From: Candidatus Nitrosocosmicus oleophilus
GTDB taxonomy: Archaea; Thermoproteota; Nitrososphaeria; Nitrososphaerales; Nitrososphaeraceae
Length of the DNA: 64,000 nt
Reading direction: 5' to 3'
Assembly (NCBI RefSeq): GCF_000802205.1
Contig: NZ_CP012850.1
Span: 2,480,001 to 2,544,000, forward strand
In this document: positions 23,698 to 62,527 of the stretch, piece after piece
How the letters are laid out: each line of letters opens with the position of its first letter
Numbering within the stretch: position 1 is the stretch's first letter
Program-made: the position numbers and the translations under genes
Notes under the pieces: generated by a model
What the model saw: only the letters and a program-made list of their open reading frames with translations
Databases searched by the model: none
What the model was told of the DNA's origin: nothing

Positions 23698-24676
23698 ACT
23701 ATAATAAAACCATACAAAAATAAAAAAATGTTTCTGCCTAGTTAACTATTAAATTCATTCTGAAATTTGAACAGAAAAATGAACCAAGTAAGCAATTTTA
23801 GAATTTTAAGATTCGATTCATGATAGTCATAATTCAGTGTAAGAAAGGGTGGACAATTTAAGAAACAGAGGATGACATATGATAACGAGTAAAATATTAA
23901 AAATTGTGGAAGGTAATTGCAATCATAGTCTAGCAATGTCACGGTAATTATAGATCGAGCTATGATATTTCTCCAGCTAAACTTTTGGCGAATAATTATC
24001 ATACAATTCATTTTAGTGTTTAACTAACACAAACTGTGTACGGTCAAGTTTAATCAATTCAGAAGAATTGAGCCAAGATTTGATCTTTTGTATTTCCAAG
24101 TTAGTTCCCACTAGATAAATTGCATGTTAGATAATTACATGGGGTCTACAATCTAATACTAGAAATATACCGCCCCCAAGATAAACAAGTAAGGCAATCG
24201 CAAAAGTCATTGAACACTCCCCCTCCTATGTCAAGATTTTCGTTTATCCATTGCTACGTTTGACTCCTTGTCTGAATTATTTCACCAATACCTATCAAGA
24301 CTCATGTTTAACCTTAGTTTGGAAAGATAGGAACGATTCAGAAGACTGGAGCCAAGCCATCAAGCTGAAAAATGATTGTATAATTGATACTATTAAGGGG
24401 TAATACATCTAGATGATAGGCTTCGGTGAGTCCTCTGCAAATTTCAGATTGTTTCACTAGTATCACTATCTGCTTCATTCGATCATAATTCAGAAATATC
24501 AAAAAGGACATGCAATATCTCAAATCCGATTAATTTTTTAATGGTTCATGGATGGTAGCAGCAGATCCAAAATATATGATATAGGTGGGAAATTAAATCT
24601 GATTGTTGTTTTTACCAAAAATAACTTAATTCATCTCCAAGAAATTCTTTTATAGGACAATAAACACTAATTGACG
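23698..24676. other. Long gene-poor stretch
   Basis: About 1 kb; frames at 23742-24011 and 24338-24523 (minus) have no supporting likeness. AT-rich sequence in the last 100 bases may hold the promoter of the 24677 gene. Confidence 0.4.
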
Positions 24677-25264
24677 ATGAAACAAACTTTCACCTATAAT
24701 AAGTCGATTTTTGCTATAGTAGTTGCACTGAGCGCTATTGTTACTCTGTTGTCGTCCGGAGTAGCTCAGGGTCAAGATAGTAATTTATCTCAGAATGAAC
24801 CATTAAAATCAACCGATAATTCTACAAACGGAGGGAACGATATCACTTTCATTAGTATTCCTGTTGAAAAAGGCTATGTCAATGGAAATTTATCATATTT
24901 CATAAGTACGGATGCATCTGAGGAAAGGATTGTATCCTCAGTTACCAATACGACCAAATTTGACGTTAACTATGCTCCGACTCTCAGTAATACATCGGAA
25001 ATTGCTCGTCAACAGGGTTTTGTATTTACAAATGGAATATTAGGGAACGGTACATTTGACCATCAACTTCCAGTCGCATCAGCAACTTCCGGAGATGAAG
25101 GGTATAGTCCTTTATTCGAAATTAATTATGTGAAATGGAATAATGAATCTCAAGCAAGAATCTTAAAATCTGCAGCTGACATAATGGATGCACAAGCAAA
25201 GGGTGAACTATCTATAGAAAAATCAAATGTAATAATAAATAGTCCGGCTGTGAAGATAAAATAA
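24677..25264 (+). CDS. Secreted protein of the DUF7482 type
   Basis: 195 residues from ATG 24677. Signal peptide about 1-33 ending GVAQG, then an Asn/Ser-rich linker and one compact beta-rich domain: ITFISIPVEKGYVNGN, YFISTDASEE, TKFDVNYAPTLSNT, RQQGFVFTNGILGNG, QLPVASATSGDEGYSPL and INYVKWN. The pattern matches secreted archaeal proteins annotated DUF7482 as far as I recall. Extracellular; function unknown. Followed 312 nt later by the membrane-binding protein fusion, possibly separately transcribed. Confidence 0.7.
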   Translation: MKQTFTYNKSIFAIVVALSAIVTLLSSGVAQGQDSNLSQNEPLKSTDNSTNGGNDITFISIPVEKGYVNGNLSYFISTDASEERIVSSVTNTTKFDVNYAPTLSNTSEIARQQGFVFTNGILGNGTFDHQLPVASATSGDEGYSPLFEINYVKWNNESQARILKSAADIMDAQAKGELSIEKSNVIINSPAVKIK

Positions 25265-25576: not shown

Positions 25577-27742
25577 TTGCGGCCTTTGTATTTTTTTGTG
25601 GCTTTGTTATCTGCAATAGCAATTGCAAACCTTGTAATCATCCTTGCAGATTCAGACAGCAGAATGATTTATTCGAGTTGGATGTTGATTATTAATTCAT
25701 CTATCGCTGCAGGATTATCCTTGATAGCCCTAGTAAAGGATAGATCCAACATAAAAAGGGACAGGACGGCGATACATCTTACCGTCGGTCTTGTATTCTG
25801 GTTTATCGCAAACATAATTTGGGGGTACTATGAAATAGTCCTTGATATAGTATCTCCGGTACCCTCATTAGCTGATTTGTTCTTGTTGTCTGCTTATGGT
25901 TTTTTAATATACAGGTTACTGGTAACTTACAAGAAACTCGGAGAAATAACGAACAAAAAAATAATATATATCGTATCAATTGGAACAGGCTTTTTCCTTA
26001 TTTACATTCTAAATTTGATGCTTAGCCTTACGGAAATTTCTAACTTCAGAGGGCTGATGTTGTTTTTAGTTACGATAGCTTACCCAATTTTGAACTCTAT
26101 CCTTACAGTTCTAGCACTAACTATTCTTCTCAATATCAAAAATGAAAAACACCATTTTATTCCATGGATATGCGAGCTAATTGGCCTATTGGCTATTGTT
26201 ATTGGAGATAGCTGGTTTGCCATTATAGTATTAACGGCTTTTGTGGAACAAATTTGGATTTCAGCGATATTGCTCTCGGCCCACTATTTACTGATTGCAG
26301 GAGGCTTGGTATGGTATCTACGCCACTATAGTAATTGGGAACTTAGGATATCAGACAACTCAATAACAAAAAACGTTAGAAAAATATTTTCTACTAAAGT
26401 AGTATTTTTATTCATCATTCCAACAGCTTTTGTTGTTATTATTATTTTGTATCTGCCAATAAATTTTGCAACGTTAGCAAATCAAGTAGGAGTACCATGG
26501 ATTTATCCAGCATATCATGAACCACTTCAATCAAATAGTATCTATCAAGAGTACATAGTTGGTGCAATCGTCCCGCAATCTGGTTCGTTGTCCTCAATAG
26601 GAAAACCTGTTCTTGCTTCACTAGAAAAGGCCGAAAACGACGTTAATGGATATTTTGAATCACATAATATATCATCTAGAGTCAAATTATTAGTATCAGA
26701 CTCAAAAACTAGTCCAGAGGAATCACTTGCGGCAATTAAGAAGTTATATTCGTCTGGAGCTAGGGTGGTTGTGGGTCCTGCTACGAGCACGGCTGTTTCT
26801 GCTGTCCTTGATTTCGCAAATGAAAATAATATTACCTTATTAAGCTATGCTAGCACTTCCCCAAAGCTGTCTATAGCTGGTGATAATCTTTTCAGATTGG
26901 TACCAGACGATAAAAGCCAAGGTAAAGTTATTGCTAAAAAGATGATGGAAGATGGAATTAAAGTTGTAGTTCCTTTTTGGAGATCCGATATCTATGGCAA
27001 CGAGTTGGCCAACGCTACCAAACATTATTTTGAAAAACTGGGAGGCAGGGTAGAGGAAGGAGTAAGTTACAAGCCACATACTGGAAAATTTGCTACCAGT
27101 CTTCACAGGATTAATTTTATCATGTGGAATCAAGAACTCAAAAAGATGAACACTATGGTATCTGATGCCATAACAAAGTACGGTAAGGAATCAGTAGGTG
27201 TTTACGTGATCTCTTACGATGAGATCACACCGATATTGATCCAAGCCCAATTGTTTGATAATCTTGGCAAGGTAAGGTGGTATGGTAGTGATAGTGTAGC
27301 TGAGAACCACCATCTCACCAAAAATATCGATTCAGCGGACTTTGCTATCCAGACTGGATTCATAAACCCATTATTTTCTGTTGAAAACGATAACCAAACA
27401 GCACATGAGATAGAGAATGATTCAGGCGGCGATGGTGTCGGAGCACATGATAGTTCCATGACCTATGCAGCTACTGCATACGACTCATTCTGGATTGCTT
27501 CAAAAAGTTTGGAAAAAAATTTTACCATGGAGATAAATAATAAAGAAATGAACAGGAACGACTTTAATGATATTTTAGCAGAAACTGCCGAATCATATGA
27601 TGGGACTACTGGTAAAATAGATTTAAACTTGGCTGGGGATCGAATAAGCGAAAACTATGACTTTTGGTACGTTGTCAAAGACAATTCTACTGGTGGGTTC
27701 AAGTGGGAGACAGCATCCAAAACCCTTGAACCTCATCACTAA
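25577..27742 (+). CDS. Multi-helix membrane domain fused to LivK-type binding protein
   Basis: 721 residues from TTG 25577. Residues 1-300 contain about nine hydrophobic helices with short polar turns. After the last helix (about 275-293) the protein is extracellular: residues 315-710 are a type I periplasmic binding protein like LivK/LivJ (YIVGAIVPQSGSLSSIGK, VKLLVSDSKTSPEESLAAIKKL, GARVVVGPATSTAV, LLSYASTSPKLS, LFRLVPDDKSQGKVIA, VPFWRSDIYGNEL, VRWYGSDS, YDSFWIASKSLE). No ABC permease or ATPase is adjacent, and no kinase domain is present. It could be a receptor or part of a larger sensing complex rather than a transporter. The fusion is unusual. Confidence 0.75.
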   Translation: MRPLYFFVALLSAIAIANLVIILADSDSRMIYSSWMLIINSSIAAGLSLIALVKDRSNIKRDRTAIHLTVGLVFWFIANIIWGYYEIVLDIVSPVPSLADLFLLSAYGFLIYRLLVTYKKLGEITNKKIIYIVSIGTGFFLIYILNLMLSLTEISNFRGLMLFLVTIAYPILNSILTVLALTILLNIKNEKHHFIPWICELIGLLAIVIGDSWFAIIVLTAFVEQIWISAILLSAHYLLIAGGLVWYLRHYSNWELRISDNSITKNVRKIFSTKVVFLFIIPTAFVVIIILYLPINFATLANQVGVPWIYPAYHEPLQSNSIYQEYIVGAIVPQSGSLSSIGKPVLASLEKAENDVNGYFESHNISSRVKLLVSDSKTSPEESLAAIKKLYSSGARVVVGPATSTAVSAVLDFANENNITLLSYASTSPKLSIAGDNLFRLVPDDKSQGKVIAKKMMEDGIKVVVPFWRSDIYGNELANATKHYFEKLGGRVEEGVSYKPHTGKFATSLHRINFIMWNQELKKMNTMVSDAITKYGKESVGVYVISYDEITPILIQAQLFDNLGKVRWYGSDSVAENHHLTKNIDSADFAIQTGFINPLFSVENDNQTAHEIENDSGGDGVGAHDSSMTYAATAYDSFWIASKSLEKNFTMEINNKEMNRNDFNDILAETAESYDGTTGKIDLNLAGDRISENYDFWYVVKDNSTGGFKWETASKTLEPHH

Positions 27743-28156: not shown

Positions 28157-28357
28157 TTATTTTTTATAAGAGTGATTTTTTCGTATGTGATCCTTAAGTT
28201 TATCCATATCGGAAAATTTGTCTCCGCAGTTAGAACAGTCATAAGATTGATTGTTAGAATGAAACAAAAGTTGGTGATGCATTGCATCTTCGACTTTTCG
28301 AAATCTCCTTCCACAGATATCACACCTGTGCTTTTTAAACAAAGCCGAAAAATCCAT
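28157..28357 (-). CDS. Two-finger C2H2 zinc-finger protein
   Basis: 66 residues with two C2H2 fingers: CDICGRRF...HHQLLFH and CSNCGDKF...HIRKNH, with 12-residue cores. The protein is basic overall and probably binds nucleic acid. C2H2 proteins of this size are typical of archaea of this group. A 98-residue frame on the same strand (28027-28323) overlaps it in another phase and is rejected. Confidence 0.8.
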   Translation of the reverse strand: MDFSALFKKHRCDICGRRFRKVEDAMHHQLLFHSNNQSYDCSNCGDKFSDMDKLKDHIRKNHSYKK

Positions 28358-59479: not shown

Positions 59480-62400
59480 TTGAACCTCAGGATAGCCAAT
59501 GTTATTAGTGAACCACTAGCTAATAGCAAGATTCCCATTGCAATGGGAATATCGATAATAGTGATTGTAATTATTTCGCTGTTGATGACTCGCCAATTAT
59601 TGGACTACAATCACATAACTGGGAATATCATGTTCATTACGACTATTGTCGTATGTTATGGAATCGGCTCTTTTGTTCTCCTGAGCTTCGCTCACAGGGT
59701 AAGCAAAGAATTGAGGAGTAAATCACGTCTAAGCAACATTATGCACTGGACAGTGATTATTGTACAATTCGGAATTTTGATAACTTTGGTATTCATGTTA
59801 GTTTTCGGTAATCCAGAATATGTTTTATCAAAGTCGATATTTGCAGCCACTTCAATACTTGCCACGGTGATCATGTTGGTAATAACTTTTAAATTTTTTT
59901 CATGGTACAGGGCCAGTAAGTACAAGAATCCCATAGTTTTGTTCTATGCTCTTGCTGCATTAACCCTTGCTTGTTCTATTTTTGAAGACGCCAGTACAAA
60001 ATTACTAATGGTCCAAATCATTTATGATGAATCTATACCAGATAATCAGATAATAGGATCATCATTTCAATACAAGGGGTCAGAGAAATATGATGGACAA
60101 GTCGTATTTGTCGAAACAAAGACGGATGAAACGGCCCTATTCATAATCCCTCAATCATATTTAGATTTATACAATTATCTTAACTCTATAATTCTGCCAG
60201 TGGGATTTATTTTCAGATGGATAGCCTCTACAATGCTATTACGGAATGTTTATAAGAAAATTGGCCCATTTCCAGTATATCTTTGGATTATAATATCTCT
60301 ACCCCTTGTGCTCTATTTGATTGGTAAGATGCCAGGCTTCTTTTCAGGTGAAAGTCTTGCCGGGATTGACGAGGCATATCGATACTATTTTCGAATATTA
60401 TTTAGAGTGGGAACGATAGCTGGGAACATATTATTTGGTTTAGCGTTCTTCATCGTTGCGAAGAAATTGAAATCGTCAAAGGTTAGAGATTATCTTATCT
60501 TAGCTGGTCTTGGTGATACAATAGTTGGGATTGCTCTATCTACTTCAGCAATAGAACCAACTTTCGGCGTTGCTGCACATTCATTAGTTCTTCTATCCAC
60601 ATATCTATTTACACTTGGTTTGTATGCTTCAGCTATTACGGTTTCCCAGGAAATGAAGTTACGACAATCAATAAGAGACTCGGCCATTGAAGAATCAAAA
60701 CTTTTATCTAGTATAGGATCTGCACAAATGCTACAAGAAATAGAAAAAAAAGTTTTTGCAGTCGTAGAAAAGGAAAAAGCAGAATTTACAAGACATACGG
60801 GATTACAACCGTCGTTTACTGACCTAGACACTAGAGAGTATTTGGATACAGTACTCAAAGAGATAAAAATAATTCAAAATATTGACGATATTATTTCAAA
60901 AAGCAAAAATATCCTATCTGATTCTAAGGAATTTATTCTGTGCACTAGACCTTCTGGTTTAAGATTAGCATTTAATAACTATTTTGAAATTTATCAGCAG
61001 ATCAGTGGAAATAGAAAAAACCACCCACACAATGGAATCAAGATCATAACATCAATTACAAATAGTAACGATATCGAAATAGTAAACAAGTTTTTGGATT
61101 TAGGAATAAGTATGAAACATGTAAAAAATCTACCCCCTATCAACTTTGCTGCATCAGAAAATGAAATGATTGCAACGATACAAAAAACAGAAGGGGGACA
61201 AATCCTTCAAAATCTGCTTACAACTAATGAACCAGCATATATTGAGCATTTTAATTCAATTTTTGATGAATTATGGGAAAATGGAATTGATATTAAAAAT
61301 AGGATTAATGATATCGAGACGGGAGTAGACAATGAAGGGATAGAAATAATTCAAAATCCCGAAACGTTTGAAAATTTATTCTACAGTCTAATCATATCCG
61401 CAAAGGAAGATATTGTTGGAATATTTTCAACACCAAATGCATTTAGACGTCAAAAGCATGCTGGGACCCTTGATTTGATAAGAGAAAGACTAGAAACAAA
61501 ATCCTTAAATGTAAGAATTCTGGTCCCTGAGGACAAATTGATTTATCAGACCATAAACGAATTTGAAGATCAAGGTATTTCAGACAGAATTAAAATTAGA
61601 CTAATGGAACCAAGCATGCAAACCAAAGTGTCAATAGTGGTAATTGATAAGAAATACTCACTTGCAGTAGAACTAAAAGATGACTCTAAGGATACCGTAG
61701 CTGAGGCTATTGGATTAGTAACATATTCTAATAGTAAATCAACGGTGTTATCTTATTATTCGATCTTTGAAAGCTTGTGGAAACAAACAGAACTATACAA
61801 ACAGTTGAAATTAAACGAGAGAATGCATAAGGAATTTATCAACACAGCTGCACATGAACTGAGGACACCAATTCAGCCAATCCTTGGGGCGGCAGATATT
61901 CTTAAAAATAACACACCTAGTTCCAGGGAAAAAGAGCTTGTAGAAATCGTAAGTCGTAATGCTAGAAGATTGAAAAAACTCGCTGAGGACATACTTGATG
62001 TAACCAAAATGGAAGGATACGCCTTAAACCTAAATATGGAAAAATTTAGAATTAGAGATATCATACTCGAAGATATTCACAATTGTGAAGCAAATTTTGA
62101 AAAAAGTAAGATAGAAATCAAGTATGATGAAATAGACGACTTACAGATTTTTGCAGACAAGGAGGGCATTAGTCGAGTTATCTCTAATTTGATTAACAAT
62201 TCAACAAAGTTCTTGCCCAGCACGGGAGGTATTATCTTAATCACGGTTAAACTGATAAAGTTCCAAAATGATGACAAATCCCTTGATATGGTGCAAATAA
62301 GCATAACTGACAACGGAAGTGGTATAGATAATGAAATGTTACCAAAGCTGTTCACAAAATTTGCAACTAAATCATTTCACGGAATTGGCCTTGGATTGTT

Positions 62401-62527
62401 TATTTCAAAGAGCATAATAGAGGCGCATGGCGGGAAGATATGGGCCGAGAATAATCAGAAAGGACAAGGGGCAACATTTTCATTTGTATTACCATTTGAC
62501 AATTCTGAACAGGGTAACAGCAAATAA
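59480..62527 (+). CDS. Membrane histidine kinase with PLD/TrmB-like sensor domain
   Basis: 1015 residues from TTG 59480. Residues 1-395 hold about eleven hydrophobic helices. About 400-560 is an alpha-helical linker with coiled coil, about 630-780 a domain resembling the phospholipase-D-like sensor of TrmB regulators (ETFENLFYSLIISAKEDIVG, VRILVPEDKL, TKVSIVVIDKKYSLAVELKDD). The kinase core is at 780-1015: His 791 in AAHELRTPIQP, N-box NLINNSTKF, G1 ITDNGSGID, and GIGLGLFISKSIIEAHGGKIWAEN. It is followed 19 nt later by its response regulator. Senses an unknown membrane or cytosolic signal. Confidence 0.88.
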   Translation: MNLRIANVISEPLANSKIPIAMGISIIVIVIISLLMTRQLLDYNHITGNIMFITTIVVCYGIGSFVLLSFAHRVSKELRSKSRLSNIMHWTVIIVQFGILITLVFMLVFGNPEYVLSKSIFAATSILATVIMLVITFKFFSWYRASKYKNPIVLFYALAALTLACSIFEDASTKLLMVQIIYDESIPDNQIIGSSFQYKGSEKYDGQVVFVETKTDETALFIIPQSYLDLYNYLNSIILPVGFIFRWIASTMLLRNVYKKIGPFPVYLWIIISLPLVLYLIGKMPGFFSGESLAGIDEAYRYYFRILFRVGTIAGNILFGLAFFIVAKKLKSSKVRDYLILAGLGDTIVGIALSTSAIEPTFGVAAHSLVLLSTYLFTLGLYASAITVSQEMKLRQSIRDSAIEESKLLSSIGSAQMLQEIEKKVFAVVEKEKAEFTRHTGLQPSFTDLDTREYLDTVLKEIKIIQNIDDIISKSKNILSDSKEFILCTRPSGLRLAFNNYFEIYQQISGNRKNHPHNGIKIITSITNSNDIEIVNKFLDLGISMKHVKNLPPINFAASENEMIATIQKTEGGQILQNLLTTNEPAYIEHFNSIFDELWENGIDIKNRINDIETGVDNEGIEIIQNPETFENLFYSLIISAKEDIVGIFSTPNAFRRQKHAGTLDLIRERLETKSLNVRILVPEDKLIYQTINEFEDQGISDRIKIRLMEPSMQTKVSIVVIDKKYSLAVELKDDSKDTVAEAIGLVTYSNSKSTVLSYYSIFESLWKQTELYKQLKLNERMHKEFINTAAHELRTPIQPILGAADILKNNTPSSREKELVEIVSRNARRLKKLAEDILDVTKMEGYALNLNMEKFRIRDIILEDIHNCEANFEKSKIEIKYDEIDDLQIFADKEGISRVISNLINNSTKFLPSTGGIILITVKLIKFQNDDKSLDMVQISITDNGSGIDNEMLPKLFTKFATKSFHGIGLGLFISKSIIEAHGGKIWAENNQKGQGATFSFVLPFDNSEQGNSK

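Follow-up and report, generated by a model that had tools for sequence, protein, structure and literature searches.

One gene of Candidatus Nitrosocosmicus oleophilus was found to join an eight-helix membrane module, a ninth transmembrane helix (TM9) and a C-terminal binding domain of the LIV type in a single chain. It lies in the 64,000-nucleotide stretch of DNA that we analysed (hereafter the window). The gene, its topology, the homologies of its domains, the lack of a PF02653 permease, its single origin and the selection acting on it are established computationally. We think it fairly likely that the protein is a single-chain surface receptor, which would bind an amino-acid-like ligand outside the cell and pass a signal via the eight-helix module to a partner.

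Gene architecture and membrane topology

The gene is a single open reading frame of 721 codons without internal stop; its start codon, TTG at 25577, is kept in the aligned relatives (Table 1). The first-pass annotation had described a membrane domain of about nine helices fused to a C-terminal LivK-type binding domain. The fusion itself was borne out, as one reading frame that is intact in 26 of the 51 Nitrososphaeraceae genomes searched, complete ones included; a fragmented or misassembled gene is excluded by the identical fusion in complete and independent genomes. As for the helices, hydropathy analysis gave nine segments (residues 6–24, 35–53, 65–83, 98–116, 129–147, 167–185, 201–219, 226–244 and 275–293), but they form an eight-helix module plus a separate, sequence-divergent TM9. 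The AlphaFold2 model of residues 1–256 contains eight helices (mean pLDDT 92); that of the whole fusion shows a ninth helix at residues 273–300, followed by the binding fold (mean pLDDT 78, with the linker at low confidence).

In all 21 homologous fusions, loops 0, 2, 4, 6 and 8 hold 15–23 Lys/Arg residues, versus 1–4 in the other loops. Owing to these counts, the N-terminus and the TM8–TM9 loop are placed inside and the binding domain outside. HisKA and HATPase_c were absent from the fusion protein in the Pfam scan, and TM8 is followed by the short loop only, without any cytoplasmic signalling domain; the standalone module proteins likewise have none.

Table 1. Features of the fusion gene, in window coordinates
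Feature	Position	Strand	Evidence or remark
Whole gene, 721 aa: eight-helix module, TM9 and C-terminal binding domain	25577..27742	+	Stop codon 27740-27742; full-length homologous fusions
Eight-helix module, residues 1-250	25577..26326	+	Hydropathy; AlphaFold2 pLDDT 92; homologs alone or on kinases
PVPSLAD motif, residues 94-100, outer loop before TM4	25856..25876	+	Signature in most modules of the family
D211-S-W-F motif in TM7	26207..26218	+	Alignments
Cytoplasmic loop, residues 251-274, short, K/R-rich, without output domain	26327..26398	+	Hydropathy; charge counts
TM9, residues 275-293, takes the chain outside; sequence not conserved	26399..26455	+	Hydropathy; AlphaFold2; charge counts
Extracellular binding domain, LIV/ANF (class C Venus flytrap) fold, residues 324-712	26546..27712	+	Pfam; structure comparison
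12-residue insertion SLHRINFIMWNQ, residues 508-519, lobe 2	27098..27133	+	Alignments

The eight-helix module and its relatives

Residues 1–250 matched no Pfam or NCBIfam model and showed no significant similarity to solved structures. The Pfam models MASE1–7, HisKA_7TM, MHYT and 7TMR-DISM gave no match at E ≤ 1 for the fusion protein, and six further module proteins did not match them at E ≤ 10; identity with a named sensor domain was rejected, as nothing was found in Pfam or NCBIfam. The fusion shares all the traits of an unnamed module family, namely eight helices, PxPSxAD, a TM7 Asp and the N-terminal position; in the alignment, PxPSxAD before TM4 and the TM7 Asp are common to the fusion modules and their relatives. 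D211 is nearly invariant across the whole family, whereas the SWF of DSWF is restricted to the fusions, whose own module signature consists of DSWF and H236.

Searched alone, the membrane part has homologs that stand by themselves (∼260–290 aa) or sit on kinases and c-di-GMP enzymes. The host genome encodes four modules, the fusion and three further ones. Kinases from genomes that we assign, by inference from gene content, to Nitrosopumilaceae carry the module at the N-terminus, with module-profile E-values down to 1.8e-71; HisKA and HATPase follow it in nine of nine proteins (4.8e-11 and 4.7e-24, respectively, in L039). The membrane modules of these kinases (L039, L060–L074) are homologous to that of the fusion; they differ in carrying HisKA-HATPase inside, whereas the fusion has an external binding domain and lacks an output domain. 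In Deinococcus, the module is located at the N-terminus of GGDEF/EAL/HD-GYP proteins. Single sequences match these weakly (E 2e-3 to 1), but a comparison at profile level of the module with the GGDEF/EAL/HD proteins gave a probability of 99.3 and an E-value of 9e-21 over 230 columns; two polytopic controls, LivH permeases and an unrelated kinase membrane region, scored 0.3 and 0.8. PxPSxAD is present in Deinococcus and also in Haladaptatus, where it marks the N-terminus of a kinase. Alike in the module by profile comparison or motif, the Deinococcus and Haladaptatus proteins differ from the fusion in having c-di-GMP or kinase output and no binding domain. For the bacterial spread of the module, plasmid sequences were sampled.

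Nitrososphaeraceae also have proteins in which the module is followed by a C-terminal domain of ∼170 aa, which we call the FExxW domain. It gave 2–13 matches per genome in the five genomes searched (13 in the host) and occurs in further large open reading frames; by eye, the ends of several of these resemble HATPase domains. The same domain (∼61319–61783) is carried by a 1015-residue histidine kinase in the window (59480–62527, + strand; HisKA 3.9e-15, HATPase 1.3e-24). The statement of the first-pass annotation that no kinase is near is thus right locally, although this kinase lies 32 kb away. Because it is found in a HisKA-HATPase protein and in HATPase-like large reading frames, the FExxW domain is regarded as kinase-associated, and its presence behind the module supports a putative signalling role of the module in Nitrososphaeraceae too. 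One such module gene of the host (G000:C1:153709-155039; L003/L134) has an apparent frameshift, with the domain spread over two frames; a close relative of it (L040) is intact.

Since its relatives sit on kinases, on the kinase-associated domain and on c-di-GMP enzymes, the eight-helix module is probably a sensory membrane module. Kinase homology would thereby assign it to a sensory family; it is not proof that the fusion member signals. The same relatives argue against the second proposal of the first-pass annotation, a secondary transporter that carries its own binding domain. A secondary or channel-type transporter, in which the module moves the solute caught by the attached binding domain, could use the nearly invariant Asp in a module helix, and binding domains fused to polytopic domains recall the fused ABC importers. 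However, the module matches neither a transporter family nor, significantly, any solved transporter, so that a secondary transporter was rejected by family and by fold; the proposal gained no positive support, and we consider it scarcely probable.

Binding domain, importer genes and the receptor proposal

Residues 324–712 match ANF_receptor (3.1e-27) and Peripla_BP_6 (2e-19) in Pfam and belong to the PF13458/PF01094 family; in structure comparison, the fold resembles LivK-type proteins and the GABA-B/mGlu ectodomains. Ser, Thr, Asp and Tyr are kept at positions aligned with the amino-acid pocket of the LivJ family, residues that we take to be ligand contacts in LivJ. These aligned residues appear insufficient to fix the identity of the ligand, which is most likely a small molecule, an α-amino acid or a close analogue. 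The domain is thus like the LIV/HAAT-type binding proteins (LivJ, LivK; Peripla_BP_6, ANF_receptor) in fold, sequence family and aligned pocket positions; different from LivJ and LivK, it is C-terminal to an eight-helix module, has no permease partner that we could find and contains a 12-residue insertion in lobe 2. The insertion, SLHRINFIMWNQ, is common to all fusions; neither the transporter-associated binding proteins L027–L031 nor the orphan binding proteins L121 and L123 have it. The host genome contains no other binding protein of this kind that we found. L123 (1738–3030, + strand), from an ANME-1 single-cell record, is close to the fusion type; no permease was recognised by eye among the reading frames of its 9-kb locus. 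A Nitrosopumilaceae MAG encodes a 930-residue protein (L127, 1983–4775, + strand) with two tandem LIV-type binding domains and one C-terminal transmembrane helix.

No match to PF02653 (LivH/LivM permeases) was obtained in the complete host genome, nor in 14 further genomes of its genus, whereas 12 of the 14 control genomes and 17 of the 61 relatives scored in the same search. As the first-pass annotation had noted, no permease or ATPase gene lies beside the fusion, and this holds for the window locus and the congener neighbourhoods alike. Urea ABC importers of the urt type were likewise not detected in ammonia-oxidising archaea by a published survey of nitrifier genomes (PMC10753782). The standalone binding proteins L027, L028, L029, L030 and L031, which come from other families, each adjoin a gene like LivH and, in most cases, are flanked on the opposite side by an ATPase-like gene; PF02653 matches were found on those contigs. 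Module and binding protein as separate adjacent genes, an arrangement that the first-pass annotation had envisaged, were not seen in the relatives. Its other concern, that the N-terminal part might be a known ABC permease, was dispelled: no Pfam ABC permease model matched, hhalign against LivH permeases gave a probability of 0.3%, and with no PF02653 match in the 15 genomes of the genus, ABC permease identity is rejected.

Because the module is found elsewhere on signalling enzymes and a matching importer is missing from the genome, the fusion protein most likely reports external nutrients rather than importing them. Of the two proposals of the first-pass annotation, the surface receptor is therefore the better supported, the module being homologous to membrane domains of kinases and c-di-GMP enzymes. 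We infer the class of ligand, the direction of signalling and the partner as follows. The extracellular LIV-type domain would close on a small ligand; TM9 and the short cytoplasmic loop would relay the closure to the eight-helix module, which would hand the signal to a membrane or cytoplasmic partner. A partner is invoked because the fusion has no cytoplasmic output domain. Candidates are a second eight-helix protein with the kinase-associated C-terminal domain and a separate histidine kinase; alternatively, a homodimer might be read by a cytoplasmic protein.

A functional analogue of the proposed receptor is the GlnH-GlnX-PknG system of Corynebacterium and Mycobacterium, in which the signal of an amino-acid binding protein reaches a separate kinase in the cytoplasm by way of a membrane protein; its components are separate proteins, and GlnX has four predicted transmembrane helices and a CHASE3 match (PMC9769921). 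In the class C GPCRs (GABA-B, mGlu), an ectodomain Venus flytrap of the same fold is joined to a helical bundle, as in the fusion, in which however the order is inverted (flytrap C-terminal) and the helices number eight. Similarity of the bundle to 7TM receptors was not significant (E ≥ 0.2, best E 0.23; TM-score ≤ 0.48). It is doubtful, though conceivable, that such proteins form a separate prokaryotic receptor class with inverted class C order, signalling by contact with PxPSxAD-module proteins of the kinase or c-di-GMP type; the unnamed family would then be a mix-and-match signalling platform of archaea and bacteria. The searched text of an archaeal kinase survey describes other sensor domains and many thaumarchaeal kinases, and contains no passage that matches the eight-helix module (PMC5847659). 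Our literature search found no description of the fusion architecture. The "new type" of the first-pass annotation is thus apt for the architecture, but binding-protein-based receptors are already known and the module is already present in other signalling proteins.

The ammonia-oxidising archaea of soil are regarded as autotrophs, and the prediction of a "branched-chain amino acid binding protein" in their genomes could be taken as evidence for amino-acid import. In this genus such a reading has no support, as our search detected no LIV permease and the binding domain is part of a probable receptor. If the receptor proposal is true, these archaea would monitor organic nitrogen or the exudates of neighbours, not eat them. 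The work also defines an unnamed eight-helix module common to histidine kinases, c-di-GMP enzymes and the receptor, with conserved residues that can be tested.

Distribution, selection and neighbourhood

The named records with the fusion are mostly Nitrosocosmicus and Nitrososphaeraceae MAGs; the few under other organism names are probably mislabelled bins. Several species of the genus have no intact fusion gene: one congener retains a remnant with four stops (G009:C13:25333-25809), and no copy was found in three others (G001, G008 and G012). The gene is therefore dispensable. In the module tree, the fusion modules (100/99), the kinase-linked modules (100/100) and the type with the C-terminal domain (98/92) each make up a clade of their own; in the binding-domain tree, the fusions again group in a single clade (95/98), next to orphan binding proteins. 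By these phylogenies, a single origin is indicated for both halves of the fusion.

The dN/dS values are 0.03–0.10 for the module, 0.06–0.23 for the binding domain and 0.31–0.54 for the loop, TM9 and linker. Both module and binding domain are under purifying selection. The constraint is strongest on the module, beyond the need of a mere anchor. That the membrane part only anchors a binding domain, which scavenges or presents its ligand or serves another uptake system, we regard as unlikely. Archaeal binding proteins are usually membrane-anchored, the relatives L027, L028, L030 and L031 have one N-terminal hydrophobic segment, and the lack of an output domain would suit an anchor. However, within the genus the module has diverged less than the binding domain, and it keeps the motifs common to kinase-linked modules; the drifting part is TM9, although this helix would be enough for anchoring. 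Moreover, no LIV permease was found that could be supplied.

Within the genus, the chromosomal location of the fusion gene is conserved, with a DUF7482 gene on one side and a glyoxalase/V-ATPase-subunit region on the other, and no conserved kinase, regulator or other signalling gene lies beside it in the congeners. Only in L033 is a gene for a module with the C-terminal domain found divergent from the fusion, ∼500 bp away. It bears on another explanation, in which the module is the true sensor (of lipid, ion or redox state) and the binding domain an external co-sensor or a regulator of other modules, for instance by forming mixed oligomers with the versions that stand alone or carry the C-terminal domain. 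The three further modules of the host and the fusions' own signature (DSWF, H236) would agree with this, but the oligomers are conjectural and the neighbouring gene in L033 is one case; we hold it to be improbable.

The upstream DUF7482 protein (24671–25264, + strand), which has a signal-peptide-like N-terminus, is kept as neighbour in three congeners. Downstream, a 66-residue reading frame on the opposite strand (28157–28357) contains two C2H2 zinc-finger matches (zf-C2H2, 7.5e-8).
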